From: Metallosphaera tengchongensis | GTDB taxonomy: Archaea > Thermoproteota > Thermoprotei_A > Sulfolobales > Sulfolobaceae | Direction: 5' to 3' | NCBI RefSeq assembly: GCF_013343295.1 | Contig: NZ_CP049074.1 | Coordinates: 663,501-727,500, forward strand | Length of the DNA stretch: 64,000 nucleotides | Shown: positions 1 to 49,657 of the stretch, piece by piece | Position numbering within the stretch: position 1 is the first letter of the stretch | Layout: the number at the start of each line of letters is the position of its first letter | Translations under genes and position numbers: made by a program | The notes under the pieces: generated by a model | Told to the model about the DNA's origin: nothing | Seen by the model: the letters and a program-made list of their open reading frames with translations, nothing else | Databases searched by the model: none

Positions 1-676
1 TTACGTCCTCCTTCTTAGCTTCTTCGGAGAATTGCTTCCCGACTATTACGGTATCTGCGTACTTCTTCAGTAGAGTAGCCTTGCTCTCGGATGTAGTGAC
101 AGCGATAACTCTCGCCCCTAAAGCTTTGGCCACTTGAAGGGCGTGAATGCCTACACCGCCACTCGCTCCCGTGACCAGCACAGTCTCCCCTCTCTCAAGC
201 TTAGCCTTTCTTAGCCCCCTATAGATCATTCCTGTCACACAAGGGACTATAACTGCTCCTTCATCTGAGACACCTTTTGGAACCTTCACTAAACTCGTAA
301 CCTTCACCTTAGCTAGCTCGGCAAAGAATCCGTCAAGCTCTTCAGAATAGCCCTGTCTTGAATGACAGTAAGCCTCCTCTCCCTTCCTACAATAGTTACA
401 AGTTCCGTCCGGAGCGTAGAGCAGAGAAGTAACCCTATCTCCTGGGGAGAACCCGACCACGCCCTCCCCAACTTCAACGATTTCGCCAACTACCTCATGG
501 CCTAGTATCACTGGGTACTTCATTCTAGGGTAGAAGCCTTGAAGTTGTAAAAGATCCCTGTAGCAGAGCGCTGCTCTATTTACCTTGATTGTGACCTCCC
601 CAGGTGCAGGTTTGGGGTCATCTACATCTCTTACCTCGTATCCCTCCCTCTTTCCCTTGACTACTACAGCCTTCAT
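1..676 (-). CDS. Acryloyl-CoA reductase (NADPH), N-terminal part, cut by the window edge
   Basis: Zinc-type medium-chain dehydrogenase expected to reduce acryloyl-CoA to propionyl-CoA in the 3HP half of the 3HP/4HB cycle. The 225 visible residues show a GroES-like domain with GHE at 59-61, a cysteine group at 93, 96 and 104, and the start of the Rossmann domain with GASGGVG at 170-176. Stretches such as LCYRDLLQLQG and ELDGFFAE match what I recall of the characterised Sulfolobales enzyme. No stop is present: the reading frame runs past position 1. Start is ATG at 676, with an AT-rich TATA region about 25-31 nt upstream. The following genes (CBS protein, succinic semialdehyde reductase) support the role. 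Confidence 0.85.
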   Translation of the reverse strand, partial: MKAVVVKGKREGYEVRDVDDPKPAPGEVTIKVNRAALCYRDLLQLQGFYPRMKYPVILGHEVVGEIVEVGEGVVGFSPGDRVTSLLYAPDGTCNYCRKGEEAYCHSRQGYSEELDGFFAELAKVKVTSLVKVPKGVSDEGAVIVPCVTGMIYRGLRKAKLERGETVLVTGASGGVGIHALQVAKALGARVIAVTTSESKATLLKKYADTVIVGKQFSEEAKKEDV

Positions 677-742
677 AGGTTTTAACAGACTTAAATAAAT
701 TAAAAATTAGACGGTTCAGTTTAACAGACTAGTTTCAATTTG

Positions 743-751
743 AGCTTTATT
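743..751 (+). promoter_or_regulatory. TATA box for the CBS-domain gene
   Basis: CTTTATTAA lies about 30 nt before the ATG at 777, the spacing expected for a leaderless or nearly leaderless crenarchaeal transcript. Confidence 0.5.
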
Positions 752-776
752 AACCTAAACGCCCAAAGTAAATACA

Positions 777-1166
777 ATGACTGTGAAAGATTTAATCTCA
801 AGAGAACCTGTTAGTGTAAGCCCCAACGCCACCATAGTTGAGGCCGCTAAGATCATGAAAAGAGAGAGGGTTGGATCTCTGTTGGTTAGGATAGGGGAGG
901 AGGCTAAGGGCATACTCTCCGAGAGAGATATCATATACGCTATAGCATCCGATCTGCCTCTTAACACAAGAGTTGAGGAAGTGATGAGCACCAACCTAGT
1001 CACAGCAGACTCAGGTATGGATGTGGGTGAAGCAGCCCTATTGCTAGCTGATAAGGGCGTTAGGCACCTCGTTATAAAGGAGAACGGAAAAATAATAGGT
1101 GTAATTTCCATAAGAGATATAGCGAGGAGTTTAGGTTTACTTACCACTGATTTAAGTGTTTGGTGA
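777..1166 (+). CDS. Two-CBS-domain protein
   Basis: A stand-alone CBS pair of 129 aa: repeat one about residues 6-60 (MTVKDLISREPVSVSPNATI ... ILSERDIIYAIA) and repeat two about 68-124 (VMSTNLVTADSGMDVGEAA ... VISIRDIARSL). Such pairs bind adenine nucleotides or SAM and act as energy sensors; there is no fused catalytic domain, so the partner is unknown. It sits between two genes of the 3HP/4HB cycle, transcribed away from acryloyl-CoA reductase and converging on succinic semialdehyde reductase. A role in sensing for this pathway is only an inference from position. Confidence 0.85.
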   Translation: MTVKDLISREPVSVSPNATIVEAAKIMKRERVGSLLVRIGEEAKGILSERDIIYAIASDLPLNTRVEEVMSTNLVTADSGMDVGEAALLLADKGVRHLVIKENGKIIGVISIRDIARSLGLLTTDLSVW

Positions 1167-1187
1167 ACAATCTAGTTATTTAAAACC

Positions 1188-2270
1188 TTAAGGCACTATT
1201 AAACTCCTGATCGCTTCCCCCTTTTCTAGGAGTTCCACAGCTTCATTTATTTCCTCTAGTTTGTACCTTCCTGTTACCAAAGCGCTTGGGTCATACTTGC
1301 CCAATCTTACGAGTTCCAGGAGTTTGGGCATGTCTACCCTAGGTCTACCACCGTAATTCCCCACAAGTTCTATGCCACCCCTTACAACCGATGCAACCTT
1401 AATTGGTATCATGGCGTTTGCTGGGGGCAATCCCACTAGAACCACCTTACCTCCTATTCTCACAGAGTCCAAGGCCATGTGTATAGTCTCCTCGTTACCT
1501 CCAGCCTCTATAATTACCTCAGGACCTCCCCCAGTAACTTCCTTTAAAGCTTTAACAGGGTCAACCTCCTTCGAGTTCACCACGTCCGTAGCACCTAACT
1601 CCAGAGCCCTATTGAGCTTCCACTTCTTTGTACCTACAGCTATAATCCGTCCTGCCCCTGAAGCTTTCAACAGTTGTATTGTGGACAGGCCAACCCCACC
1701 TACTCCTATTACCGCCACTGTATCACCGGGCTCTATCCTAGAGAGGGAAACGGCTCCGTAACCTGTTAACCCTGCACATCCTAGCACAGCTACCTTCTCT
1801 AGGTCCATATCATCTGGGACTTTGGTTAGCCCGTTCTCGCCCACTATGGCGTACTCAGCAAATCCTCCTCCCAAGAACGTCCTTATCTCCTTCCCGTCCT
1901 TACTCAGTCTGCTGGTTCCGTCCTGCATTACACCCTTAAGTCTGACCTGGGAAAAAGTTTCACAAAGGTTCTCTTTTCCCGATACACAGTTCCTGCACTT
2001 ACCGCATGGGTGAATGAAGGCAGAAATGACTTTGTCGCCTTTCTTGACCCTAGTTACGCCAGATCCGACTTCCTCAACGACCCCTGATATCTCGTGACCT
2101 GCGACCACAGGTGTGGGAACAGGGGTCTTTCCCTCGAAAACGTTTACGTCCGAGTGGCACAACCCAGTAGCTTTCACCCTAACCTTTACTTCCCCTTCTT
2201 TGGGTTGAGAGATGTTTACCTCCTCCACCACTAAGGGCTCCTTGTACGCATTAAGTACTGCAGCTTTCAT
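1188..2270 (-). CDS. Zinc alcohol dehydrogenase, probable succinic semialdehyde reductase
   Basis: 360-aa zinc-dependent medium-chain dehydrogenase. Catalytic zinc ligands are C38 and the GHE motif at 58-60; structural zinc cysteines are 89, 92, 95 and 103 (CGKCRNC ... LC). The nucleotide-binding loop is GVGGVG near residue 190. From family sequence alone the substrate is open, but the order of neighbours is the one I remember around the biochemically characterised M. sedula succinic semialdehyde reductase, which makes 4-hydroxybutyrate in the 3HP/4HB cycle with NADPH. ATG at 2270 is preceded by a TTTTAAG box about 26-30 nt upstream. Alternative: another Zn-ADH acting on simple aldehydes or alcohols. 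Confidence 0.75.
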
Positions 2271-2341
2271 AACTATCTACTCCAATTCCAACTTAAAATG
2301 TTTAAAGTGTTTAAACAACGTTACTTAAGCTCCTGTTTACT

Positions 2342-2350
2342 CTTTTTAAC
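2342..2350 (+). promoter_or_regulatory. TATA box for the 3-hydroxyacyl-CoA dehydrogenase gene
   Basis: CTTTTTAAC is centred 25 nt before the ATG at 2371; this favours that ATG as a leaderless start. Confidence 0.5.
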
Positions 2351-2370
2351 TGGTTCTTCTGTAAACTCTT

Positions 2371-3543
2371 ATGCGAATTGCGGTTGTTGGATCAGGAACC
2401 ATGGGACATGGTATTGCAGAAGTAGCCTCTATTTCAGGTATGGAGGTCAAGCTAATAGACATCTCCTGGGACATTCTCAACAGGGCAAAGCAGAGAATGG
2501 AGGAGTCCCTAAAAAGGCTTTACGACAGGGGTACAATCAAGGAATCACCTGAGCAGGTGATGAGAAGGATCGAAATGTCCACAAGCTACGAGGTTGCTAA
2601 AGAAGTGGATTTCGCCATTGAAGCTGTACCTGAAATCTTAGATTTAAAGAGAAAAGTATTCGAGCAATTAGATAAAATCACACCACGGGATGCAGTCCTA
2701 GCCACCAACACTAGCTCGATCCCCATTAGTGACATAGGAGAAATTACTTCGAGGAAGGAAAGGGTCATAGGGATGCACTTCTTCAACCCCCCTCCCCTCA
2801 TGAAGTTGGTCGAGGTTATCCCGAGCAAGTATACTACGGAGGAGGTTACTAACTTCACTGTGGATCTTGCCAAGAAAATGGGAAAGGTTCCAGTTAGGCT
2901 TAAGGTTGAAGTACCCGGTTTTGTAAGCAACAGAATTTTCTTAAGGTTGTTACAAGAGGCGTGTAGGGAAGTGGAGTCTGGAGAAGCTACCGTGGAAGAG
3001 GTGGACTCTGCAGCCAGGAACAAGTTGAAATTACCGATGGGGATATTTGAACTTGCGGACTACGTCGGGTTGGACGTGGTAGTGGATCTTTGGAAAGTCA
3101 TAGTTGGCAGGGGGGCCAAAGACGTCTCTTGCTCCTCCTATAATAAGAAGGTAGAGAGCAAGGAACTTGGGGTTAAGGCAGGTAAGGGGTTTTACTCTTA
3201 TCAGGCCCCAGGTAAGTACTCCAAAGTACCCCTCCCCCAGGATAGTAGGGTCCCTCCGGAGAGGGTAATATCCCTTGCTGTCAACGAAGGTGCTTGGCTA
3301 ATGGAGAACGGAATAGTGAACGCCGAGGAAATAGACACTGTTATGAAGCTAGGCTTTAATTTCCCAAAGGGACTTATGGAAATAGCAGATGAGCTCGGAA
3401 TAGACTCAATTGTAAGTCAACTGAAGGATATTTACTCAAAGGGTTACGACGCATATATGCCCAACCCATTACTCCTGAAAATGGTATCGTCAAACCAACT
3501 AGGGAAGTCCACAGGCCGAGGCTTCTACGTGCATAATACTTAA
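2371..3543 (+). CDS. 3-hydroxyacyl-CoA (3-hydroxybutyryl-CoA) dehydrogenase
   Basis: 390-aa soluble NAD(P)-dependent dehydrogenase without a fused crotonase domain. Rossmann fingerprint [11 protein letters not shown] begins at residue 8. Catalytic elements are NTSS, the His of HFFNPP with the Glu twelve residues later (LVEVIP), and the Asn of PGFVSNR. Two C-terminal HCDH domains follow, each ending in a KxGRGFY-like turn (KAGKGFYSY and KSTGRGFYV). It probably oxidises (S)-3-hydroxybutyryl-CoA to acetoacetyl-CoA in the 4HB half of the carbon-fixation cycle, in line with its neighbours. Transcribed divergently from the reductase at 1188-2270 from a short AT-rich gap. Confidence 0.85.
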
Positions 3544-3545
3544 AG

Positions 3546-3553
3546 TTTTTAAA
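3546..3553 (+). promoter_or_regulatory. TATA box for the CoA ligase-like gene
   Basis: TTTTTAAA, centred 25-26 nt before the ATG at 3575 and starting right after the stop of the preceding gene, so the ligase-like gene has its own promoter. Confidence 0.5.
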
Positions 3554-3574
3554 TAGTTTAAACTCATTCTACTC

Positions 3575-4993
3575 ATGACAGTTCTTGAAGAATATGAGGC
3601 GATTCACAGGGAGCTGAGAAGTGAGGGGTACATCTCCACAGAGTACCCACCAAATCCATCTGAGAAGTTGTGGAACAAGAAGACGTTAACCATGAAGAGG
3701 GAGGAACTGGAGAAGTTAAAATCCCTTAGGCTAAGGCGAATAGTAAAGTGGGCCTGGGAAAACGTTCCGTTTTACAGGAACTTCTGGAAGTCCAAGGGAT
3801 TCGATCCGGAAGTAGTTAAGGACTGGAAGGACGTGGTGAAAATCCCTATCCTAAGAAAGGACGAGCTAAGGAAGGACCTTTCAGCGAACCCACCGTTTGG
3901 TTCAATTATGGTTCCAGAGCTGGCCAAAAGGATCAGGTTCGTGGGAGCAACCTCAGGCTCCACAGGTCTCCCCACTTTCCAAGGCTGGGGGAAATTGGAA
4001 CTGGACTACTTCGAGGAGGCCCAGGCCAGGTATCTCTGGACCTTTGCTGGAGTGAAACCCACCACAGTATATGCAAACTACCTAAACATGAGCGGATTTT
4101 ACAGCTGGGGACCGCCTGTAGTGGAGACAGCCATGTGGAGGTGTGGAGCCACTGCAATAGCAGGAGGGGGAGAGACATATTTTTCCTGGAAGTCTAGGCA
4201 TAACCTCATTTTCAGGCTCTGGAAGGTCGACGTATTAGCTACAACGCCCTGGCTCCATAGGCTAATAGGAGAGGAGGCTAAGGCTGAGGGATGGGAATCG
4301 CCCTTCAAGGTTCTGCTACTCCATGGAGGCGCAGCGGCCCAGAATACAAAGAGGAAGCTTTTCCAAGTTCATCCGAACGCTAAGTTAGCGATTAGCGTGT
4401 GGGGTACAACTGACGGACACATGGCTGTGGAGGTTCCAAATCTTGATGGACAGCTAGTTGTTTGGGATGACATGGAGATCTTCGATATAGTTGATCCTAA
4501 GACCGATGAGCCTGCTTCAATAGGAGAGAGAGGAGAACTTATAGCAACTCTCCTTAACCACTTTACGATGCCCCTGATAAGGTACAGTCTAGGTGATTAC
4601 GTTAAGAACGAGTTCACCACCGACCCTGACCCCACATATGGAATAACCCACTCAAGGTTCGTAGAGCCAATACCTGGTAGAGTTGAATGGATGTTTAAGG
4701 TAAGGGGTAAATTACTCCTTCCCATATATGTGGAAGATGCCGTAAACGAGATCCCTGAGACCACTGGGATGTTTAACGTCATAATATATAACAACGAGAT
4801 GGACAAGCTAAAGATAAGAGTTGAGACCAGAAGAAACATGGTGGACTCCGCCTACGACTCGAGGGCGAGGGAGATATTGGCAGGGAGAATAGGACTGGAT
4901 AAGGACGATGTGGAGATTGAGTGGGTAGAACCAGGAAAAACAACGTGGACTGGTTATAAGTTGCAGGTGTTCCTGGACCAGAGGAAGAAATAA
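3575..4993 (+). CDS. Phenylacetate-CoA ligase-type (PaaK family) adenylate-forming enzyme
   Basis: 472-aa member of the AMP-forming ligase superfamily of the PaaK branch rather than the acetyl-CoA synthetase branch. Seen: the typical N-terminal helix [19 protein letters not shown], the phosphate loop [11 protein letters not shown] at about residue 127-137, the motif WGTTDGH in place of the usual YGxTE, and SLGDYV with a C-terminal subdomain. It would activate a carboxylic acid with ATP and CoA. The position beside succinic semialdehyde reductase and hydroxyacyl-CoA dehydrogenase makes a substrate such as 4-hydroxybutyrate attractive, but nothing in the sequence fixes it. Confidence 0.75.
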
Positions 4994-5102
4994 ATCGCAA
5001 ACTTCAAGCCCAGTGATTTTTTACCAAGACTAAATCTAGATTCTTCCCGCTTGCACGTCCTATCGATAGGAACATCTTTCCCTCACGACTGAGACTCTCC
5101 AA

Positions 5103-6935
5103 TCAGGATTTGTTAAGTATACTTCTCAGAGCTCTATTGACCTCAGCGACGCTCCACGCTTGGGCAATGCATCCCCCCATTCTATATGGGGGGATGTCCT
5201 CAAAGAGCTCTGGGAGAAACCCGTTTTCTCTCAGGGCAACTCTTAGCAACGGATCAAACTTGTTTATTAGCCCTTTCAGTTCTAACGGATTGTCATCAAA
5301 ATTAAGCTTAGCATCAACGTAAGCACCGATCAGCCAAGGCCACACAGGTCCGTTGTGATAAGCGCGGTCTCTGGAGGTTCTATCGCCTCTGTAGAAAGGG
5401 ATGTATCCTGGATCCCTCTTGGACAGTGTACTTAGACCGTAGGGTCTAAGGAGCTCACTCTCAACTATACTAATGACCTTCTTAGCTGTCTCGCCCTCTA
5501 CAACGGGGAACGGAAGAGAGAGAGCGAAAATCTGGTTAGGTCGAACTTCCTCACTTGGGGTTCCATTCCACTTAATGTAGTCGTACAGTCCGAACTCAGA
5601 GGGGAACTTCTCATTGAAGGCTGATCTGACTTTATCTGCCTTCTCAGCAAACTCCTCCTCTTTCATTCCCAACTTCTTAGCCAGAGCATCTACGATCATT
5701 AGAGCATTGTAAAATAGCGCGTTGACCTCTACAGTAGCCCCCTCCCTTGGGGTTACTACCACACCGTCAAATTGCGCGTCCATCCACGTCCGTGGAGCTC
5801 CAATATGGTAAAGTAGATTCCCCCTATTGTAAATAATTCCGTTGCCTTTCCAGTACCAATCCACTATCTCCAAAGCCTTAGGGAAGAGTCTGCTCACGAA
5901 GTCTAGATCTCCAGTGTAATTGAAATATTTATAAAGAGCGTTGATTCCCCAGAGAGCTATGTCAACCCCCTTATAGACTACTTCGTTGTTCCCAAGGAAA
6001 TTATTTGGCATTAGACCCTCATTGACCGCGTTGAAATACCTTTGAAGGATACCCTTTGCCTGTTCGTAAAGCCCGTTAACCAGTAGGATCCCCTCCATGG
6101 CTATCATGGTATCTCTTCCCCACTCGTCAAACCAGTGATATCCTGCTATTATGGCGTAGCCAGTCTTTCCCTTAACTAGAAAGCTTTGAGCGGTATCGGA
6201 GAGGACGTCCAAGATTTCCCGAGATCTAGGGATTTCTACGGTCCTAACGAAGTTCCCCCAATACGCATCGATCTCTATCCGGTTTCCCTTACTTACCACG
6301 CAAAATGGGTTAAAGAGATCCTCCAAGTGATTGCTCCCCCTCTCGTAATCTAGACGATAGAAGAAATTATAGTACCAATAACTGGTAGTCTCCACCTTAT
6401 GATCGCCCCTAACGTTTACCCTTATGAAAGGGATTCCGTTAGCCTTTAGAGTAATCTCACTGTTGGTATCCACGGTGATCAGTGGATGTCTATCCTTTGT
6501 TACGACGTGATGACTCCTGAAGGTTACGAGGGGGCAAATTCTAAAAAACCCCCTCTCAGTCTCATACGAGAGGGTAATGGCATCATATCCGCGGTGTACC
6601 GTCAAGGACTTCCTCGCAACTGAGTTGCCAAAGGTATAGTTCCAGGTCACGAAGTTCTTACCCAAGTCCACCCTGTGTAGGAACCTGAATCCCTCTGGGT
6701 AGAAGACGTCATCTACGTAATGGTTAGTGGACAGTGGATACTCGTGCTCGTCAGTTACCAGAAAGTCCTCGACCTTAGAGAGTGTTAAGTACCTCCTATG
6801 AGGACGATCCTGAGGTATGATGAGGAGGCCGTGGTAAGTTCTAGAGTTTACACCACAGATAGAAGATGAAGAATACCCCCCAGTGCCTGTAGGAATGATC
6901 CACTCCCTCTCCTCACACTCAATAGGGTCAAACAT
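5103..6935 (-). CDS. Glycogen debranching enzyme (amylo-alpha-1,6-glucosidase type)
   Basis: 610-aa archaeal debranching enzyme: an N-terminal GDE_N-like beta domain (residues about 1-220, with NSRTYHGLL) and an (alpha/alpha)6 catalytic domain (about 250-605) containing WFDEWGRDTMIAMEG and the late PPYRMGGCIAQAWS stretch. It hydrolyses alpha-1,6 branches of glycogen or limit dextrin in the cytoplasm. It ends the glycogen island and follows the glucoamylase gene by 4 nt, so the two are surely co-transcribed. The DNA for DIPPYRMGGC forms a perfect 11-bp hairpin (5170-5196). Confidence 0.88.
   Translation of the reverse strand: MFDPIECEEREWIIPTGTGGYSSSSICGVNSRTYHGLLIIPQDRPHRRYLTLSKVEDFLVTDEHEYPLSTNHYVDDVFYPEGFRFLHRVDLGKNFVTWNYTFGNSVARKSLTVHRGYDAITLSYETERGFFRICPLVTFRSHHVVTKDRHPLITVDTNSEITLKANGIPFIRVNVRGDHKVETTSYWYYNFFYRLDYERGSNHLEDLFNPFCVVSKGNRIEIDAYWGNFVRTVEIPRSREILDVLSDTAQSFLVKGKTGYAIIAGYHWFDEWGRDTMIAMEGILLVNGLYEQAKGILQRYFNAVNEGLMPNNFLGNNEVVYKGVDIALWGINALYKYFNYTGDLDFVSRLFPKALEIVDWYWKGNGIIYNRGNLLYHIGAPRTWMDAQFDGVVVTPREGATVEVNALFYNALMIVDALAKKLGMKEEEFAEKADKVRSAFNEKFPSEFGLYDYIKWNGTPSEEVRPNQIFALSLPFPVVEGETAKKVISIVESELLRPYGLSTLSKRDPGYIPFYRGDRTSRDRAYHNGPVWPWLIGAYVDAKLNFDDNPLELKGLINKFDPLLRVALRENGFLPELFEDIPPYRMGGCIAQAWSVAEVNRALRSILNKS
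5170..5196. repeat. Perfect 11-bp inverted repeat inside the debranching-enzyme gene
   Basis: CATCCCCCCAT and ATGGGGGGATG flank the 5-nt loop TCTAT. It lies in coding sequence about 90 nt before the stop codon and is forced in part by the codons for Pro-Pro and Gly-Gly. Confidence 0.8.
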
Positions 6936-6939
6936 GTAG

Positions 6940-8787
6940 CTAATACTTTCCTCTCAATTTATTTAAGGTGATTATAAATTCGGCGTGAGACCAGACCAGA
7001 GGCATAACTGACGTGGACTGAAAGCCTTCAGGATCTACTTGTTCAGGCAGAAGACCAGAGGGAGACGCCCTTTCAACTACCCAGTTGATAAGTTCCTTCC
7101 CCTTGTCAGACTTCTTCAGGTCTATCATGTATTGAGCTATCCACAGGGTTGTTATTATCCAAGGGTTAGGTTTAGAACTTCTCCTTTGATACATGTCGTT
7201 CTCGTATCTAGCAATTCCTCCATTAATCAACAACTTTTGAATTATGGCCTCCACTGTTGAAACCATGAGAGGATGGTCTGGTTCCAACATACCGAAAAAG
7301 TACGGTGCGTACATACTTGCGTCAACTGTGTCGTCCGGTTGATAGCTCTCGTCCAATCTCCTTATGAACCTCCTTCCATTGGTGAGTTTAGCTAACGTCT
7401 GTTCCTTCATGGTCTTTGCTACGTCTAGGGCGTCCTCAGCCAGACTCTCGTCCCCCATGCCCTTTGCAAGTTCCGCCCCTTGAGTTAGCCCCCCGTAAAC
7501 AGTGGATATTGTGTACAAATGAATGCCATACCTCTCCTCCCACAGATCAAAGCTAGGTTTGGGTAAACCGTCCTCCATGTAACGCATCATAAAGTGGAGT
7601 GCAGGTTTTACGAATCGTCGGTATATCTCCGTTAACTCATCTAAATCCTTATATCTTCTAAAGTGGTTACCCATTGCCCAGACTTCTAGTGCAGTTTCAT
7701 CCTCCTGAATAGGTAGGATTTTTTTATTGTTATACAACCAGGGATGCCAGGAACTCGCTAAAGTTCTGTTGGGGTTATACTTGTGATAAAGGTAACCTTC
7801 TGAGCTAACTATATCCTTGACGAAATTAAAATGCCTCATGGCAAGCTCACCGTAACCTGCAATGTCCAAGGCATGTGCAGCTATTGCCCCGTCCCTTGGC
7901 CAGAAGTACTGATAAGAATCCCCGTAAAGGTTTACAAAGGAGAAGTCAGAGGAGGCAATAATTGATCCATTTATGTCCATGTGATTTTTTATAGTAATGA
8001 GGCTTACGTTGTAGAGCCAATTTTCATGATCCGAGAGCCAAGCGCTCTTTGAAAGCCAACTCTTCCAGAACTGGTACACAGACACGAAGGTGCTCTCGAC
8101 CTGAGCTGGGTTTACATTTCCTATGAGCTTCCTCACCTCCTCAAGGCCCCTCGATGCTCCAATTACGTAATATGCCTTGGCGAAGCTGTTTTTCCTTAAA
8201 TTCAGCTCTATTCCGGCAGCAGACCTCACGTCACCGTGAGATATTGGGTTTCCGTCCAATCTTCCGTCCTGAATGTCATCCATGGGATTTCCTTTGGTAG
8301 TGGAAAACTCCATGGAATTAATAGCAGTAGACATTAGTCTTATTGACAGATATCTTTTGGACTTGTAGTGAATTAGCGACCAAGTATTTGGGTCAAATAG
8401 GGCAGTATCTCCGAAGGGGTTGGAGTATATGTTGAAGTCATGAAGAAAGAAGAGCTTAATTTTCCCTTCTATACCCTTGGAGAGAATCTTAAGAATTGAG
8501 TAAAATATGGGCTCATTGGTATCGACAAAATTGTAGGAAGTTATTTCCAATCCCGGGTTGGGCACGTCCCATTTTATTTCAACAAGGTTTACTCCCTCCT
8601 CGTACGTCATGGTAGTTTTCCACGATGTATCTAAAGAGATCGACTTACCGTCCCATATCGCCACCCTAATAGGGTATCCAGAGGTCTGGTTTTCCATCCC
8701 TATATAGGGGTAATAAAAGTCCGTTATCCTTCCATTCTCATCGAAGTTAACTAGAATCCTGCCGTTTCCTATCCCTGCCATCCTCAT
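6940..8787 (-). CDS. GH15 glucoamylase (glucan 1,4-alpha-glucosidase)
   Basis: 615-aa GH15 enzyme without signal peptide, so intracellular. N-terminal beta-sandwich (about 1-250, [21 protein letters not shown]), then the (alpha/alpha)6 barrel with [15 protein letters not shown], the general acid region LWEERYG and the general base region SGLLPEQ near the C-terminus. It releases glucose from the non-reducing ends of glycogen or dextrins. The start could be the first or the third codon (MRMAG...). It is 4 nt upstream of the debranching gene, and together they can degrade branched glucan completely. Confidence 0.88.
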
Positions 8788-40996: not shown

Positions 40997-41701
40997 ATGG
41001 AAAAGATTGGCGAAGGAAAGACCAAGGAGGTCTTCCTTCTAGACGAGGACCACGTTTTACTTAAGTTCAAGGACACTGTGACGGCCGGGGACGGTGCCAA
41101 GGCTGATGTAATTTTAGGTAAGGGGGTTCTGAACGCGCAGACCTCAGCAATAATCTTCAGGCTCTTAGAAAGGGAGGGGATTTCTACACATTACGTGGGC
41201 ATGAAGGACGACAGAACTATGATAGCCAAGAAGTTAAAGATGATCCCTGTAGAGGTGGTTTTGAGGAATATTGCAACAGGGAGCATCGTAAAGAGGTTGC
41301 CTATCAATGAGGGGGAAATTTTTGACCCTCCCATCGTAGAGTTCTTCTTAAAGGACGACGCCAGGCATGACCCACTGTTGAATTATCATCACATGAGGTA
41401 CCTCAAGCTAATGGAAGAAGGGGAGGCGAAGGAGATAGAGCAGATAATGTTCAAGGTGAACGAAGTTTTGAGAAGGGTTGTAACCAACATGAAGCTTTCC
41501 CTGTACGATTTCAAACTGGAGTTCGGAAGGTTTAACGGAAGGCTCATGATAGGGGACGAGATCTCTTTGGACTCCATGAGAGTAAGGGACCCTGAAAGCG
41601 GGAGGATATTGGACAAGGATCTATACAGGAGGGGTCAGCCATTGGAGGTTGTAAAGGCGTCCTACTCTGAGTTCTTCAACAGGCTTACTCAGGTGGTGTA
41701 G
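40997..41701 (+). CDS. purC: SAICAR synthetase
   Basis: 234 aa. [48 protein letters not shown] and the [11 protein letters not shown] motif are all present, full length. ATP-dependent ligation of aspartate to CAIR, step 8 of purine synthesis. First gene of an eight-gene purine operon; the purS GTG follows immediately after the stop. Confidence 0.95.
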
Positions 41702-41971
41702 GTGTACAGGGTGGAGCTCATAGTGATAAACAAGGACGGCGTGAGGGATCCAGAAGGGGAGACTCTAAAGAGATACGTACTTGATCCTGAAGTTCCCAAT
41801 AGGATATCCTCAGCCAGAGTGGGGAAGTTCATAGAGCTTTTAGTAGATGCTAGCTCTAAGGAGGAAGCTGAAAGGCTTGTGGCAAAGTTGGCTGAGGAGA
41901 AGAGGCTCTACAACCCCATAGTTCATAAGATCAGAGTGAGGGCTGAAAGGCTTGAGGACGGCAGTTCTTAA
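41702..41971 (+). CDS. purS: FGAM synthase subunit PurS
   Basis: 89 aa, YRVELIVINKDGVRDPEGETLKRYVLD ... ISSARVGKFIELLVDASSKEEAERLVAKLAEEKRLYNPIVHKIRVRAE. Small bridging subunit of the three-part FGAM synthase (PurSQL). Start GTG directly after purC; overlaps purQ by 20 nt. Confidence 0.93.
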   Translation: MYRVELIVINKDGVRDPEGETLKRYVLDPEVPNRISSARVGKFIELLVDASSKEEAERLVAKLAEEKRLYNPIVHKIRVRAERLEDGSS

Positions 41972-42620
41972 GTTTCCAGGAACCACGTGCGAGATAGATG
42001 TCGCCAAAGCCCTGAAGAAAGTGGGGGCAGAAGTAGAGGTAGTCCAGTTTAACAAATTTGATCCCGACAGATACGGTGGGGTAGTCATCCCTGGAGGCTT
42101 CAGTTTCGGGGATTACATTAGAGCTGGAACTATAGCTGCCAACAGCGAAGCCATGAAGAGGGTTAAGGATATGGCTGATGAGGGAAAGTTGGTTCTGGGC
42201 ATCTGCAATGGCTTCCAAATCTTGGTGGAGTCCAACATACTAAAGGGCGCCCTTCTCCCAAACCTAAACTTGAGGTTCATAACTAGATGGGTCAGGGTCA
42301 AGGTTAGAAGGAGAGACACACAGTTTACAAAAGACTCCAAGGAGACTTTGTTTATGCCAATAGCCCACATGGAAGGCAGGTATTTCCTGGACGACGAAGA
42401 ACTTGCGTCTAGACTGTCCCTTTTCCAATATGTTGATGAAAGCGGACTACCGACACCAGAGGCAAACCCAAATGGATCCATACTTAACATTGCTGGAATA
42501 TCCAACGACGCTGGTAACGTAGTTGGGCTTATGCCACACCCAGAGAGAGCATCGTTCTCTACAATTTCCCCAGATGGGTCCACAGACGGTCTGGAGATCC
42601 TAAAGGTGTTCGGGAAATGA
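41952..42620 (+). CDS. purQ: FGAM synthase glutaminase subunit PurQ
   Basis: 222 aa class I glutamine amidotransferase: FPGTTCEIDVAKAL, nucleophile Cys in GICNGFQIL, and the His-Glu pair in LMPHPERAS. Supplies ammonia to PurL. Start TTG 41952 inside purS; overlaps purL by 4 nt. Confidence 0.94.
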   Translation: MRTAVLKFPGTTCEIDVAKALKKVGAEVEVVQFNKFDPDRYGGVVIPGGFSFGDYIRAGTIAANSEAMKRVKDMADEGKLVLGICNGFQILVESNILKGALLPNLNLRFITRWVRVKVRRRDTQFTKDSKETLFMPIAHMEGRYFLDDEELASRLSLFQYVDESGLPTPEANPNGSILNIAGISNDAGNVVGLMPHPERASFSTISPDGSTDGLEILKVFGK

Positions 42621-44722
42621 TGCTCACCCTTTCTCAAAGGGAAATGGAAGTGGTTAGGAGGGTTCTGAATAGGGAACCCAATGAGGCTGAGTGGAAACTA
42701 GTAGATGCGCTCTGGTCTGAGCACTGCTCCTATAAGAGCTCAAAGGTGTTTCTGAGAAGCCTTCCAAGCACCGGACCTAACGTAGTGATGAGCGTGGAAG
42801 ATTGGCAAGATGCAGGTGCTGTGGACGTTGGGGACGGTTGGGCTCTAGTACTTAAGGTGGAGAGCCATAATCACCCGTCAGCCATTGACCCTTTCAACGG
42901 CGCAGCAACTGGAGTGGGGGGAATACTCAGGGACATTATCAGTAAAGGTGCCCGTCCCATTGCACTCCTTGATATGATCAGGGTCGGGAGGTTAGACCAG
43001 AAGGGGAAGTGGCTGGTCAAAAACATCATCTCCGGTATCGGATTCTACGGTAATAGCGTGGGGGTACCAGTTGTTGGTGGGGAGCTTTCCTTCGACGAAA
43101 CTTACAATGACAATCCTCTGGTGGATGTGGCGTGTGTAGGGGTAGTAAAGAAGGACTCCATAGTTCCTAGCGTAGTCAAGGAGTCCGGTCTAAAGCTCGT
43201 GCTGGTGGGTTTCACGGGGTTGGACGGTCTGGGTGGAGCGTCCTTTGCGTCCCGTAAACTAAGCGGATTAGATGAAATAGGCGCAGTCCAGATCGCTGAC
43301 CCCTTTGCAGGGAAGGTAATAATTGACCTTACGCTTGAGGTCGCGAAGGACGTCAGCGCTATTAAAGATCTAGGGGGCGGTGGACTGGCCGTGGCAGTGA
43401 CAGAAATGGCTAACGGCTTAGGAGCCGTAGTTAACCTTGAAAAAGTCCCTTTGAGATATAGGGATTTGTTACCTGAGGAGATTATTATCTCAGAGACTCA
43501 GGAAAGGATGCTGTTCGCAGTTAAGCCAGAGAAAGTTGAGGCAGTGTGTTCGAAGTTTCAAGAGCTCAACTACCCATGCGCCGAGATAGGAGAAATCTCA
43601 ACAGAGCCTACCATAAGGTTTCTCTATAAGGGTGAGACGGTCGCTCAGTTGCCCTCTGATCTACTGTTGAACCCTCCTCTAGTGGTCTGGCCCGCAGAGA
43701 GGAAGGAAAGATCAAATTCTGACTCTAGACCAGTGGAACTAAAGGAAGCCATCGTAAGGGTAATGACGCACCCGGACCTAGTAAGCAAGGAGTGGGCATA
43801 CTCCCAGTTTGACTATGAGGTTGGGACGTCTACAGTTGTGAAACCTGGAGATGGGGACAGCGCAGTTGTGGAGTTACCCAATGGGAGGTTACTGGCGTTA
43901 AAGGGAGATGCGAACCAAGACCTATGTAGCGAGGACAGCTACGAATGCGGTAAGGCCATAGTCGCCGAAACTTATAGGAACTTAGCTACCGTTGGCGCCA
44001 GGGGGATAGCCCTGGTGGACCACTTGCAGTTTGGAGATCCAAGAAAGCCAGAGGTTTACCACGACTTCATCGAGGCTGTGAGGGGCATTTCGGAGGCTTC
44101 AAAGTTCTTCTCTATTCCAGTGGTGGGCGGAAAGGTATCGTTCCACAATGAGGACAAGGAAGGGAATCCTATAAAGCCAACACCTCTAGTGGTCATGGCG
44201 GGGCTGGTGGAAGGGAAGCTAGGAAAAGGAAAGCCTCAAGAGGGCTCACTAGTTTTGTTGGGTTTAACAAGGAATGAACTTCGAGGAACTCTTTATAGCA
44301 GATTATTCGGCGGAAGAGGAAGTATACCGAAGGTTAGGTTGATGGAGGACGAGCTGGCTTCCAAACTCGTCATAAAGGGGATCAATGAGGACAAGGTTAA
44401 GTGGAGCAAGGACCTGTCTAAAGGTGGTCTTGCCGGCGCTGTTTTGCCATTAATAGTCAACGGCTTGACAGTAGCCATAACCAGCGGAGCTATCCAAGGG
44501 ACTTCAGATATTTTAGCCAAAATGTTCTCCGAGGGTAGTGGAAGGTTCCTTGTGGTAACTGACGATCCGCAGTGGTTCCTATATCAGGCGGGAAGGCTGG
44601 GAATTCAAGCCTCAGTTATAGGAAAGGCATACCAGGGTTCTGACCTAATTATAGATGAAAAATCATTCAATACAGAGAAAATTACTAGCAACTATTTCAG
44701 GTTCTTGGAGGAGGTTCTATGA
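42617..44722 (+). CDS. purL: FGAM synthase large subunit PurL
   Basis: 701 aa small-type PurL: LWSEHCSYKSSK near the N-terminus, KVESHNHPSAIDPFNGAATGVGGILRDI, the second ATP site GGGGLAVAVTEMA, and C-terminal half GDANQDLCSEDSYECGKAIVAETYRNL. Converts FGAR to FGAM with ATP and PurQ-derived ammonia. Overlaps purQ and purF by 4 nt each. Confidence 0.95.
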   Translation: MMLTLSQREMEVVRRVLNREPNEAEWKLVDALWSEHCSYKSSKVFLRSLPSTGPNVVMSVEDWQDAGAVDVGDGWALVLKVESHNHPSAIDPFNGAATGVGGILRDIISKGARPIALLDMIRVGRLDQKGKWLVKNIISGIGFYGNSVGVPVVGGELSFDETYNDNPLVDVACVGVVKKDSIVPSVVKESGLKLVLVGFTGLDGLGGASFASRKLSGLDEIGAVQIADPFAGKVIIDLTLEVAKDVSAIKDLGGGGLAVAVTEMANGLGAVVNLEKVPLRYRDLLPEEIIISETQERMLFAVKPEKVEAVCSKFQELNYPCAEIGEISTEPTIRFLYKGETVAQLPSDLLLNPPLVVWPAERKERSNSDSRPVELKEAIVRVMTHPDLVSKEWAYSQFDYEVGTSTVVKPGDGDSAVVELPNGRLLALKGDANQDLCSEDSYECGKAIVAETYRNLATVGARGIALVDHLQFGDPRKPEVYHDFIEAVRGISEASKFFSIPVVGGKVSFHNEDKEGNPIKPTPLVVMAGLVEGKLGKGKPQEGSLVLLGLTRNELRGTLYSRLFGGRGSIPKVRLMEDELASKLVIKGINEDKVKWSKDLSKGGLAGAVLPLIVNGLTVAITSGAIQGTSDILAKMFSEGSGRFLVVTDDPQWFLYQAGRLGIQASVIGKAYQGSDLIIDEKSFNTEKITSNYFRFLEEVL

Positions 44723-46050
44723 AAGAACATTGCGGAGTCTTTGGAGTGGTTGGGGAGGACGCAACGAGGCTTACCTACGAGGGATTGAAGCTTCTTCAGC
44801 ATAGGGGACAGGAGTCCGCTGGGATATCTTGGATAGAGCGAGGTAGTGTTGTTACGAAGAAGGGACTTGGTCTCGTGGGTGAGGCACTTGATCCCAAAGA
44901 GCTTAGGAACGCCCAGATGGCGATAGGTCACGTAAGGTACTCTACAACTGGGTCTACAACTATCACGGAGGCTCAGCCCTTAAGTAACGAAAGGATTTCA
45001 GTATCCTTCAACGGAACCATTACCAACCACTTCCATTTTGGTGAATTCGCGACAGACACTGAGTTTATCCTTAACTTCCTCTCCAAGGAGTTAGAGAGAG
45101 AAGGTGACTTGGTCAGGGCTGCCAAGTCCTTCATGGACGTAGCTGACGGGGCTTATTCCCTCCTGATTCTATCTGATGAAGAGCTCATAGCCATGAGGGA
45201 TCCAAGGGGATTTCGCCCCCTAGTCGTAGGCGAAATTGACGGGAGCAAGGTAGTGTCATCGGAGGACTCTGCTATCAAACAGTTGGGAGGTAAGGTTATT
45301 GGGTCTGTACATCCTGGAGAGTTGGTCGTAATTAAGGAAAAAGGGATATCAAGGGAGAGCGTATACAACCTTCCTTCGGCTACTTGCGCCTTTGAGTACA
45401 TTTACTTCTCCAGGAGCGACTCGGTAATAGACGGGATCTCCGTCTATACCTCCAGGGTTAGACTAGGGGAGTTGTTGGCAGAGAGGCATCCTGCAAAAGG
45501 TGACATTGTAGTTCCAGTTCCAGACTCGTCAAGACCCATAGCCTTAGGCTTCTCAAGGAAGAGCGGTATACCGCTGGAGGAGGCTTTGGTGAGGACAGTC
45601 TCCTCAAAGAGGTCTTTCATTATGCCCTCTAATGAGAAAAGGAATGAGGTACTCAAGGAGAAGTTCGGTGTTGTGGAACGAGCAGTCAGCGGTAAAAGGG
45701 TGGTACTTATTGACGACTCCATAGTGAGGGGAAATACCATGAAGAGACTCATAGCGTCCCTGAGAAACGGAGGCGCTACAGAAATTCACGTTAGGATTGG
45801 TTCCCCCATGATAAGGTATCCATGTTATATGGGTATTGACTTCCCCAGGAGATCCGAGCTTTTGGCCAACTTGGGGGACATCAAGAGGATCGCTAGTGAG
45901 GTAGGAGCTGACAGCGTTGAGTATCTTGAAACTGACGAAATGGAGAGAGCCATCGGGAGGAAGAACCTCTGCGAAGCTTGCTTCTCTGGTGTCTACCCAC
46001 TAAAGGGTAAGTATGACCTCTCAAAATTGGAGAGGGTTTTCTCGAGGTGA
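44719..46050 (+). CDS. purF: Glutamine PRPP amidotransferase
   Basis: 443 aa. Four-residue propeptide MKEH before the Ntn nucleophile Cys5; glutaminase residues intact (HRGQESAG, GHVRYSTTG, SFNGTITN). Phosphoribosyltransferase PRPP loop VVLIDDSIVRGNT. Four cysteines (TCAFEY, YPCYMG, NLCEACF) fit the [4Fe-4S]-bearing Bacillus-type enzyme. Catalyses the committed step of purine synthesis. Followed after 4 nt by a degenerate paralog. Confidence 0.94.
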   Translation: MKEHCGVFGVVGEDATRLTYEGLKLLQHRGQESAGISWIERGSVVTKKGLGLVGEALDPKELRNAQMAIGHVRYSTTGSTTITEAQPLSNERISVSFNGTITNHFHFGEFATDTEFILNFLSKELEREGDLVRAAKSFMDVADGAYSLLILSDEELIAMRDPRGFRPLVVGEIDGSKVVSSEDSAIKQLGGKVIGSVHPGELVVIKEKGISRESVYNLPSATCAFEYIYFSRSDSVIDGISVYTSRVRLGELLAERHPAKGDIVVPVPDSSRPIALGFSRKSGIPLEEALVRTVSSKRSFIMPSNEKRNEVLKEKFGVVERAVSGKRVVLIDDSIVRGNTMKRLIASLRNGGATEIHVRIGSPMIRYPCYMGIDFPRRSELLANLGDIKRIASEVGADSVEYLETDEMERAIGRKNLCEACFSGVYPLKGKYDLSKLERVFSR

Positions 46051-46054
46051 CAAA

Positions 46055-47257
46055 ATGGCAGGAATAGTAGGAATATTAGCCTTCGATAGGGTTTGGAACG
46101 TAGGTAAGTTTTTGAAGTACTCCATGGTAGGGCTCCAGCACAGGGGTTACGCGTCCAGTGGGGTAGCAATGCTAAATAACGAGATAGTGTTTGCTACAAA
46201 GGACGTGGCACCTGAGGACTTGGAGCTTGATATGGAAGGATGGGCAGGGATAGGGTACACCGGCTCAAGGAATGGATATCCCATAGTTAACGAAGATGTG
46301 GCCATATCAGTTGACGGAGTGTTGAGGAATCCCGAGGAGTTCTTGAAGAAGTTCACCAAGGATCCAAGAAAGGCTTTGGAGGAGGAGAAGGGAGTTTATT
46401 CCCTGATTGCCTTAACTAGGGACGGAGATATGATAGGGTACAGGGACGAAACCGGGATAAGACCGCTCAGCCTCGGTGGTTTCGGATTTGATATGGCAAT
46501 AATAGCGTCGGAACCCGTCGCCATGTCTGTCATAGGAGGTGACTTCAGAAGGGAGATAGAACCAGGAGAAATGGTAACGGTGAACAGCCTTAACATAAAG
46601 GCTGAAAGGATAAAAGAGCCCAAGAAAGCCTACTGCTCCATAGAGTACGTCTATCAAGCCAGGATCGACAGCTTCGCCAACGAGAGGAGCATTTACGAGA
46701 CCAGGGTAAAGATAGGGGAACAGTTAGCTGAGGAAAGACCTATAGATGCAGACACGGTCATTGGGGTGCCGGATACAGCTTTACCTTTTGCTCTAGGATA
46801 TTCTAGAAAGCTCGGGATACCAATGGACCTAGGTTTCACCAGGACTGGAAGCCCCATAAGGACAATGCTAGCGTCAGATAGTTTCCTAAAGATAGTGGGA
46901 GTTCAGCTCAAGCTTAATCCAATTAAGGACGCGGTGTTCGGGAAAAGGGTAGTCTTAATAGACGACTCCATGGTCACTGGAACTACTCTCAAAAACACAA
47001 TAATGAGCCTAAGGAAACTGGGCGCAAAAGAGGTTCACGTTCTGATTGGTAGCCCTAAGCTAGTGTCCAAGTGCCCGTATGGCGTTGAGGTCCCAGAGGA
47101 AAGAGAGCTCATCGCTGCAAACCTTGGGGAGGAACAAATTGCCAGGGTTTTGGGTGCAGACTCCATCCATTGGCTCACGCTAGACGGTTTGAAGAAAGTG
47201 ACCAACTATAACCTATGCACAGGTTGTATGACCAAGAGTTATCCAAAGGTGATCTAG
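46055..47257 (+). CDS. PurF paralog lacking the glutaminase nucleophile
   Basis: 400 aa from ATG 46055, which has the ribosome site GAGGTGA at 46044-46050; the frame is open further upstream into purF, but that part is not PurF-like. It starts MAGIVGILAFD: Ala2 stands where the Ntn Cys should be. The glutaminase pocket is also altered (GYTGSRNG for GHVRYSTTG; VDG at 86-88 for the usual HNG/FNG). By contrast, the PRPP loop VVLIDDSMVTGTT (299-311) and the four cluster cysteines C184, C340, C388 and C391 are kept. Probably an ammonia-dependent or regulatory partner of PurF. Confidence 0.85.
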   Translation: MAGIVGILAFDRVWNVGKFLKYSMVGLQHRGYASSGVAMLNNEIVFATKDVAPEDLELDMEGWAGIGYTGSRNGYPIVNEDVAISVDGVLRNPEEFLKKFTKDPRKALEEEKGVYSLIALTRDGDMIGYRDETGIRPLSLGGFGFDMAIIASEPVAMSVIGGDFRREIEPGEMVTVNSLNIKAERIKEPKKAYCSIEYVYQARIDSFANERSIYETRVKIGEQLAEERPIDADTVIGVPDTALPFALGYSRKLGIPMDLGFTRTGSPIRTMLASDSFLKIVGVQLKLNPIKDAVFGKRVVLIDDSMVTGTTLKNTIMSLRKLGAKEVHVLIGSPKLVSKCPYGVEVPEERELIAANLGEEQIARVLGADSIHWLTLDGLKKVTNYNLCTGCMTKSYPKVI

Positions 47258-47258
47258 G

Positions 47259-48692
47259 ATGAAAGTGTTGCTAGTTGGAGACGGAGCAAGAGAGCACGCC
47301 ATGGCTGAGGCGTTGGCCAATTCGGCTGAAGGGTATAGGGTATTCGCTCTCTCATCATATGTGAACCCTGGAATAAGGGAAGCAGTCCTAAGGACTGGTG
47401 GGGACTACGTCACTGGAAACATTAATTCCAGGGACGAGGTAAAGAGAGCAATATCTAGGTTCAATCCGGATTTCGGGGTAATAGGTCCTGAGGACCCTCT
47501 ATTTTATGGGGTTGCAGACGAGTTCAGAGCCAACGGTATTCCTGTGGTGGGGCCCAATAAAGCCGCTGCGGAAATAGAAAGGTCAAAGGTCTGGATGAGA
47601 TCTCTCATGTGGAAGTACAATATTGAAGGAAGGTTAAGGTACAAAGCTTTCTCAAGCATAGAGGAAGCGTCAAAGTTCATTTTGGAGTATCAAGGCTCAG
47701 TAGCGGTTAAACCCTCCGAGCAGGTTGGGGGTAAAGGGGTTAAGGTAGTCGCTGACATACAGGCCTACCTCTCAAAGGAGAAAAGAAGGGCCCTGAGCAA
47801 AAGCGTGAACGAGATTGGCTCCCTTGTAAAGAACGAGATCAAGATCATTATTGAGGAGAGGGTTGACGGACCGGAGTACACTCTTCACGTCCTAACTGAT
47901 GGACAGACTTTCTTGCCTCTACCCTTGGCGCAAGACTACAAACACGCTTATCAGGATGGGATAGGTCCGGAAACTGGAGGCATGGGATCCATCTCAGGTC
48001 CGGGACACCTGCTCCCCTTCATTAACCAGGAAGAATACCAAGGAACTTTGGATATTATAAAAAAGACTGCAGATGCCATAAGGACGGAAGCTGGAGAGAG
48101 CTACAAGGGCTTTATCTCAGGTCAGATGATGCTCACCGAGTTGTGGGGGCCTACGGTGATCGAGTTCTATTCGAGGATGGGGGATCCGGAAACTACAGCA
48201 ATCATTCCTAGAATTGATTCTGACTTCGGTTACTTACTCCAGTTAACAGCTGAGGAGAAGCTCTCAAAGGCAACCCTCTCAGTCAAGGAAGAAGGAGCAG
48301 TAGTTAAGGCTGTAGCTCCTCTAGGTTATCCCTTAAGGAGAGATCTAGCCACAGGTAAGGAGATCCAGCTGGATCTCAAAGCAATGAGGGAGAGAGGCTG
48401 TAACGTATACTTCGGCTCAATCGCTTATGAGGGAGGGAAACTGATCACCAGAGGATCCAGGGCCCTGGAGCTGGTATCTCTAGGGGAGTTTCAAGAAGCC
48501 TCAAATAGGTTGGACGGATGCGTAAAAATGATCAGTGCAAACACGGAGCTGGTATTTAGAAGGGACATAGGGAAGTCCTTGCGTGACCAGATAGAGAAGG
48601 CTGAGATAGTGAGGTACTCATACAGGAACAGAATCAAAAGGGACGCACTGGGGGTCTCCGCAGACTGGGCACCCAACGGTGGTCTCTGGTGA
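47259..48692 (+). CDS. purD: Phosphoribosylamine-glycine ligase
   Basis: 477 aa ATP-grasp enzyme: VLLVGDGAREHAMAEAL, VIGPEDPLFYGVADEF, VVGPNKAAAEIERSK, ETGGMGSISGPG and SRMGDPETTAIIPRI. Longer than the usual 420-430 residues because of an insert after SEQVGGKGVKVVADIQAY and a C-terminal extension. Joins glycine to phosphoribosylamine. Starts 1 nt after the previous stop; overlaps purM by 4 nt (GTGA). Confidence 0.94.
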   Translation: MKVLLVGDGAREHAMAEALANSAEGYRVFALSSYVNPGIREAVLRTGGDYVTGNINSRDEVKRAISRFNPDFGVIGPEDPLFYGVADEFRANGIPVVGPNKAAAEIERSKVWMRSLMWKYNIEGRLRYKAFSSIEEASKFILEYQGSVAVKPSEQVGGKGVKVVADIQAYLSKEKRRALSKSVNEIGSLVKNEIKIIIEERVDGPEYTLHVLTDGQTFLPLPLAQDYKHAYQDGIGPETGGMGSISGPGHLLPFINQEEYQGTLDIIKKTADAIRTEAGESYKGFISGQMMLTELWGPTVIEFYSRMGDPETTAIIPRIDSDFGYLLQLTAEEKLSKATLSVKEEGAVVKAVAPLGYPLRRDLATGKEIQLDLKAMRERGCNVYFGSIAYEGGKLITRGSRALELVSLGEFQEASNRLDGCVKMISANTELVFRRDIGKSLRDQIEKAEIVRYSYRNRIKRDALGVSADWAPNGGLW

Positions 48693-49657
48693 GCGAATAT
48701 AGCAAGTCTGGAGTAGACCTTAACAAGGTAAAGGAAGTTCACTCTGACATTGCCTCCCTCATTTCGTCAACCTATAGGAGGACTGTCCTAGGGGCCGGTC
48801 ACTACTCGGGAGTCATAGACGTCTTAGGCAAGAAGATAGCGCTCCACGTGGATGGGGTAGGCACCAAAACTCTCCTAGCTAGAAAGGCCAGAAAGTATCG
48901 CGGAATAGGGAAGGACTGCGTAGCCATGAACGTCAACGACTTGCTGTGTGTGGGGGCCAGACCTTTAGCTATTCTAGATTATATTGCCATGGATTCGCCT
49001 GACGAGCAGCTGGTAAGAGAGATCTTGGAGGGTATCGTAGAAGGAGCAAAGGAGTCTGACTCAGAAGTAATTGGGGGAGAGACAGCTATCATGAAGGACG
49101 TGGTTAACGGGTTTGACGTGGCTTGCACGGCAATGGGAATCGTGGAAGAACTTAAGGTTGGTAACGACATATCCGGAGGGGACGTAATAATTGGACTGGG
49201 AAGTAGCGGAGTTCACTCCAACGGTTATTCCTTGGTTAGAAGGCTGATTGATCAAGGTAAACTTTCCTTTGAAGAGTGGCAGGATCAACTACTCACTCCA
49301 ACCAAGATTTACGTAAGGCCTGTCCTATCTGTAATGGATAAGATAAAAGGTGCAGGGCACATCACTGGAGGTTCGTTTTCAAAGTTAAGGAGGCTCACCA
49401 ACCTCTCCATGGAAATGACCTTACCGGATCCGCCGGAGATTTTTAAGGTAATCGAAAGTGCTGGCGTCACTCACGAGGAAATGCACCAAGTGTTCAATAT
49501 GGGTGTTGGTATGGTCCTGTTCACCAGAGACTCTAACGTTGATGAAGTTATGAACGTTTTAAAGCCGTTTGGTCCTTCCTGGATCCTCGGAAAAGTCGGA
49601 GAGAAGCCTGGACCCATCAAAATAACGACGTATAAGTCCAGGGTTCTTTATATATAG
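48689..49657 (+). CDS. purM: AIR synthase
   Basis: 322 aa: VDGVGTKTLLA, CVAMNVNDLLCVGARPLAILDYIA, VIGGETAIM, GLGSSGVHSNGYSLVR and HITGGSFSKLRRL. Closes the imidazole ring from FGAM with ATP. GTG start overlapping purD. Last gene of the operon; purE, purK, purB and purH activities are not encoded here. Confidence 0.94.
   Translation: MSEYSKSGVDLNKVKEVHSDIASLISSTYRRTVLGAGHYSGVIDVLGKKIALHVDGVGTKTLLARKARKYRGIGKDCVAMNVNDLLCVGARPLAILDYIAMDSPDEQLVREILEGIVEGAKESDSEVIGGETAIMKDVVNGFDVACTAMGIVEELKVGNDISGGDVIIGLGSSGVHSNGYSLVRRLIDQGKLSFEEWQDQLLTPTKIYVRPVLSVMDKIKGAGHITGGSFSKLRRLTNLSMEMTLPDPPEIFKVIESAGVTHEEMHQVFNMGVGMVLFTRDSNVDEVMNVLKPFGPSWILGKVGEKPGPIKITTYKSRVLYI

Follow-up and report, generated by a model that had tools for sequence, protein, structure and literature searches.

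A PurF paralog with a lost glutaminase site in the purine operon of Metallosphaera tengchongensis, a possible ammonia-dependent phosphoribosylamine synthase

The purine operon of Metallosphaera tengchongensis encodes two PurF-like proteins, a complete PRPP amidotransferase (PurF1) and a paralog (PurF2) that we tentatively read as an ammonia-dependent phosphoribosylamine synthase. The history that would best account for PurF2 is an ancient duplication of the amidotransferase, after which one copy lost both the glutaminase half-reaction and the ammonia channel, with the PRPP half remaining; this copy would most likely turn PRPP and free ammonia into 5-phosphoribosylamine, alongside the glutamine-using PurF1. 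We give a separate reaction of this kind, as opposed to a regulatory role, a little short of an even chance. Both parts of this reading, that PurF2 catalyzes with ammonia and that it runs its own reaction instead of regulating PurF1, we infer from comparison of sequences.

The window analyzed here (64,000 nucleotides of contig NZ_CP049074.1) contains, on its plus strand, a compact run of genes in the order purC-S-Q-L-F1-F2-D-M, in which neighbors overlap or stand a few bases apart. The run comprises purC (40997-41701), named from its sequence and pathway knowledge; purS (41702-41971), a small ORF in the purC-purQ interval whose putative identity draws on position and sequence; purQ (41952-42620); purL (42617-44722); purF1 (44719-46050); purF2 (46055-47257); purD (47259-48692), directly behind purF2; and purM (48689-49657). 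The purC, purQ, purL, purD, and purM genes served as references for genome comparison. PurF1 is a complete GPATase with both active sites intact, and its score of 405.7 bits lies over the curated 350-bit cut-off of the PurF equivalog model TIGR01134. As originally predicted, the second PurF-like gene stands directly behind a normal purF within the purine operon; the gap is 4 nt, and the two genes are probably co-translated. A scan of the operon for sigma-70 promoters and terminators returned only a chance number of matches. The PurF1 N-terminus reads MKEHCGVFG (MKEHC at 44719-44733), its Cys being preceded by a four-residue leader that would need to be removed to expose the Cys and that differs in length among Sulfolobaceae.

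The purF2 ORF is intact and encodes 400 residues, opening with MAGIVG and so placing Ala at the position of the Ntn Cys1. In the degenerate Ntn glutaminase domain (46055-46633, plus strand; residues 1-193), the former glutamine loop (46253-46276; residues 67-74) reads GYTGSRNG in place of GHVRYSTTG, and residues 86-88 are VDG, against the oxyanion FNG of PurF1, with D87 replacing the oxyanion Asn. The pocket residues R73, T76, N101, G102, and D127 (E. coli numbering) correspond to Gly, a gap, Asp, Gly, and Asn. The PRTase domain (46634-47254, plus strand; residues 194-400) has the PPi-contact Tyr, a PRPP loop, VVLIDDSMVTGTT (46949-46987; residues 299-311), in which Arg371 is Thr, and a flexible loop, RTGSPIRTMLASDSFLKIVGVQLKLNPIK (46841-46927), whose R269 and K286 (E. 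coli R332 and K349) are invariant in PurF2. Of the ammonia-channel residues Y74, Y329, F334, I335, and L415, which are Ser, Ser, Met, Leu, and Leu here, only L415 is kept, the channel Tyr and Phe of the flexible loop (E. coli Y329 and F334) being replaced. The motifs named in the original prediction (MAGIVG, GYTGSRNG, VDG, and the PRPP loop) are therefore all present, and the four cysteines of the putative Fe-S cluster are kept as it had said, except that the first is residue 194 and not 184; C194, C340, C388, and C391 align with B. subtilis C236, C382, C437, and C440. Its further claim of a loss restricted to one active site does not stand, because the ammonia-channel and coupling residues lost include some inside the PRTase domain.

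PurF2 scores 232.8 bits against TIGR01134, under the equivalog threshold, and the Pfam GATase (glutaminase) models gave no match to it. An AF2 model of PurF2 (mean pLDDT 90.5) has B. subtilis PurF (1ao0), the closest solved structure, as its best Foldseek match (TM 0.86, E 1.7e-39), and the dead glutaminase domain is on this basis predicted still to fold in a GPATase-like manner. Relative to PurF as represented by TIGR01134 and by the B. subtilis and E. coli structures (1ao0 and 1ecc), PurF2 shares the fold, the PRPP loop, the flexible-loop Arg and Lys, and the four Fe-S cysteines, but has no Ntn Cys, glutamine loop, or channel Tyr and Phe, and falls under the family cut-off.

The paralog itself has already been published. 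Brown et al. (2011; PMC3261824) reported that each crenarchaeon has two PurF-like genes that fall into two tree clusters, and that the second copy, PurF', has no Cys and clusters with purine genes; they suggested that it might be an ammonia-dependent PRPP aminotransferase. An ammonia-only enzyme is also one of three functions that the original prediction named side by side, the others being a PurF-PurF2 heteromer and an allosteric sensor. The PurF2 of the window is this PurF': its Cys is replaced, it belongs to a clade apart from PurF, and it adjoins purF in the purine operon, in likeness to the missing N-terminal Cys, the clustering with purF and purine genes, and the separate tree cluster of the crenarchaeal copies. 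We found no work on PurF' later than 2011 in the open literature searched. A comparable pair is known from Methanocorpusculum labreanum, in which Mlab_0150 is likewise a PurF copy without the catalytic Cys beside a normal PurF; that copy has a Cys-to-Ser change and is attributed to a relatively recent duplication (PMC3261824), whereas PurF2 forms an old clade with Ala, Ser, Thr, Pro, or Gly at this position. What is added here beyond the PurF' paper is the occurrence of PurF2 in more Thermoproteota families, Theionarchaea, and Ca. Jordarchaeum, the loss of the channel, estimates of selection, and a glutaminase-free lineage.

Active-site residues were compared in 101 PurF2 and 97 PurF1 sequences and 81 single-copy archaeal and bacterial PurFs, with E. 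coli residue numbers mapped via B. subtilis and PRPP contacts taken from PMC7953260 and PMC7056826. Both active sites are kept by the PurF1 proteins (for instance, F334 and R371 in 97/97 and Y74 in 95/97). In PurF2, the glutamine site is essentially gone (Cys1 kept in 1%, His70 in B. subtilis numbering in 1%, Arg73 in 0%, Thr76 in 1%, Asn101 in 2%), and so are the channel and coupling residues Tyr74 (1%), Tyr329 (0%), and Phe334 (0%), as well as the Phe that follows the PPi-contact Tyr (1%). PRPP contacts, by comparison, are retained almost throughout: Arg332, Lys349, Asp366, and Asp367 in 100% of PurF2 sequences, and Tyr258, Ser368, and Thr374 in 99%. The cluster cysteines are kept in 93-100%, and the catalytic flexible loop and pyrophosphate contacts are near-invariant; Arg371 is Thr in about half of the clade, including the window copy. 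The dead glutaminase site and intact PRPP site that had been described for one protein thus hold over the clade. With Cys1, the glutamine loop, the oxyanion Asn, and the PRTase-domain channel residues lost and the PRPP contacts persisting, PurF2 has shed the entire route from glutamine to ammonia and retained the PRPP half; the loss of channel residues (E. coli Y74, Y329, and F334) beside 99-100% conservation of nearly all PRPP contacts is new relative to the published account of PurF'.

This is the pattern expected for a PRTase that uses unchannelled ammonia, and Cys1-replaced E. coli PurF is still able to use ammonia (PMC3261824). Two features of the same residues count against such an enzyme, namely the Arg371-to-Thr change and the loss of Tyr329 and Phe334, which could impair closure of the flexible loop. 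Residue conservation also bears on two less probable readings. The former glutamine pocket has been re-fixed with residues specific to PurF2 (a nearly invariant D87, invariant R30 and G31, and a GFGFD motif), which hints at a new ligand, and PurF2 might accordingly pair PRPP with another amine or use it in another step; we consider this quite improbable given that PurF2 is always tied to a purine-synthesizing PurF1, mostly in a purine operon, and that there is no candidate amine. Alternatively, ammonia made by the PurF1 glutaminase might be passed between subunits to the PRTase site of PurF2. Such a two-part enzyme would fit the retention of the PRTase site by PurF2 and of the glutaminase by PurF1, and the adjoining, often overlapping genes; it is nonetheless unlikely, because PurF1 has a PRTase site and channel of its own and so needs no partner for catalysis, and the known channel residues are missing from PurF2. 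A strict form of complementary loss, with PurF1 as glutaminase only and PurF2 as PRTase only, came to mind from the altered flexible loop of Metallosphaera PurF1 and was rejected, because the same KFGV form occurs in a solved PurF (9q0n) and PurF1 keeps its PRPP and channel residues, the one exception being Tyr329 in Sulfolobaceae.

PurF2 was found in 74 of the 78 genomes of the GTDB order Sulfolobales that have PurF1; the four with PurF1 only are 56-77% complete, and the remaining genomes of the order have neither protein. Among the Sulfolobaceae genomes searched, G180 alone encodes neither PurF1 nor PurF2 and is probably that of a purine auxotroph. PurF2 also occurs in many further Thermoproteota families, where genomes were hand-picked and presence is not a frequency, and in Theionarchaea and Ca. 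Jordarchaeum. In a FastTree phylogeny of 283 sequences, all 101 PurF2 proteins form one clade with support of 1.0 and no PurF1 within it, by which we rejected a recent tandem duplication within Sulfolobales; deep supports are near 0, so that the tree fixes neither the root of the clade nor its exact sister. Values of dN/dS, computed for close pairs with unsaturated dS, reach at most about 0.27, and most lie under 0.15, for each domain of PurF1 and of PurF2, and in most close pairs the PRTase domain of PurF2 is at least as constrained as that of PurF1. The age of the clade, its near-perfect co-occurrence with PurF1, and the low dN/dS in both domains support the view that PurF2 is ancient and under purifying selection, as the original prediction had argued, and neither recent nor an error. 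The missing catalytic Cys might by itself suggest a decaying pseudogene or an annotation or sequencing artefact, but with open frames throughout a 101-sequence clade and low dN/dS in its close pairs this explanation retains a negligible probability and was rejected. No PurF2 of the order has Cys at residue 2, the observation in a relative that would have pointed to an error here. A mis-called start hiding a Cys is also excluded, because the sole in-frame extension (from ATG 46013, MTSQNWRGFSRGDK) contains no Cys and, for 13 of 30 Sulfolobaceae PurF2 orthologs, the reading frame opens no more than three codons from the MxG start.

The association with PurF1 speaks for the strongest alternative, in which PurF1 and PurF2 assemble into a heteromeric GPATase and PurF2, as the regulatory subunit, tunes PurF1 by sensing PRPP or purine nucleotides at its PRPP-type site. 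PurF1 and PurF2 co-occur nearly one to one, and no genome among those searched has PurF2 alone, which would be odd for an independent enzyme. Further, in 92 of 118 PurF2 loci purF1 immediately precedes purF2 in the same orientation, overlapping it or at a short distance (-31 to 24 nt, with a median of 4). GPATases are tetrameric, with nucleotide sites that overlap the PRPP site (PMC7056826), and among PRPP synthetases it is common for a pseudoenzyme to partner an active paralog (PMC13252144). Such pseudoenzymes, the PRPP synthetase-associated proteins among them, offer a possible parallel in which a paralog with a PRPP site pairs with an active enzyme, but by analogy only, as they derive from an unrelated enzyme and have lost catalytic residues, whereas PurF2 keeps its PRPP site. 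Against regulation, the flexible loop and pyrophosphate contacts that a sensor could dispense with are those found to be near-invariant. Co-occurrence also holds where the genes are unlinked, as in family f6, four genomes of which carry the two copies (G103, G104, G105, and G107), so that tandem linkage is inessential, which alone is no argument against a complex. A regulatory heteromer is a substantial possibility, and the sequence evidence mildly favors ammonia-dependent synthesis over it.

Evidence on this choice comes from two relatives in genus g58 (G135 and G136), whose PurF1 has lost Cys1, Arg73, Tyr74, and Asn101. Their purine operons (L061 of G135, 427-8505; L053 of G136, 424-8544) are without purS and purQ, the genes by which purE and purL are separated in four congeners (L058, L059, L069, and L076), and neither gene was found elsewhere in the two assemblies, which are incomplete MAGs (79% and 83% complete) of one lineage. 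The PurF and FGAM-synthetase steps of this lineage thus seem to proceed without a glutaminase; a lineage without the PurF1 glutaminase, PurQ, and PurS is new. In none of the six g58 genomes searched (G131-G136) did a GMP synthetase glutaminase subunit score over the cut-off of TIGR00888.

In a rate comparison with the four congeners, branch lengths of the glutaminase-free pair, divided by those of a glutaminase-bearing pair, were 1.10 for purD, 1.54 for purL, 1.8-1.95 for the PurF1 domains, and 0.73-0.80 for the PurF2 domains, and the ratio of PurF1 to PurF2 PRTase distance was raised 2.2-fold (bootstrap 95% 1.25-4.12). PurF1 therefore evolves faster in this lineage while PurF2 stays constrained. 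If PurF2 were merely a regulator, the PRTase of PurF1, the would-be only catalyst, should be the most constrained; the reverse is seen, a pattern that fits ammonia-dependent synthesis by PurF2 but is suggestive only. The two genomes mildly favor ammonia-only catalysis, tempered by the facts that they represent a single lineage, that the PRTase residues of their PurF1 are still largely intact, and that purL is faster too. We had taken the retention of both copies in these genomes as an argument against an ammonia enzyme, and dropped it because the rates show PurF1, and not PurF2, to be relaxing. The broader proposition, that PurF2 is a dedicated channel-less ammonia-dependent synthase across much of Thermoproteota and performs the first step of a glutaminase-free pathway in G135 and G136, is possible, although we would sooner expect it to fail than to hold.

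The glutaminase-free relatives make the choice between ammonia enzyme and sensor directly testable. As an ammonia enzyme, PurF2 would be a natural uncoupled GPATase, and over a large part of an archaeal phylum two differently wired enzymes, one fed by glutamine and one not, would serve the committed step of purine synthesis; a sensor role would make it a long-lived pseudo-subunit in control of purine flux.

The only Cys-bearing member seen in the PurF2 clade is the distant copy of Ca. Jordarchaeum (L204, 2875-4332; 44% identity), which keeps Cys1, His70, Asn101, and Asp127 and is without Arg73, Tyr74, and the channel Phe. This combination suggests that the glutamine loop and channel were lost earlier than the Cys, and the nesting of the protein among Cys-less members (support 0.99) implies several parallel losses of the Cys, or a regain. 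Further Cys-less PurF-like proteins, possibly additional paralogs, begin with MSGLFG (L277, 2998-4410), MSGIFG (L237, 4327-5748), and MLGGLFG (L198, 1096-2670) and come from a Clostridia MAG, an Omnitrophota MAG, and a Thermoproteota genome (G233), respectively; two of them adjoin the PurF2 clade in the tree, perhaps through long-branch attraction.
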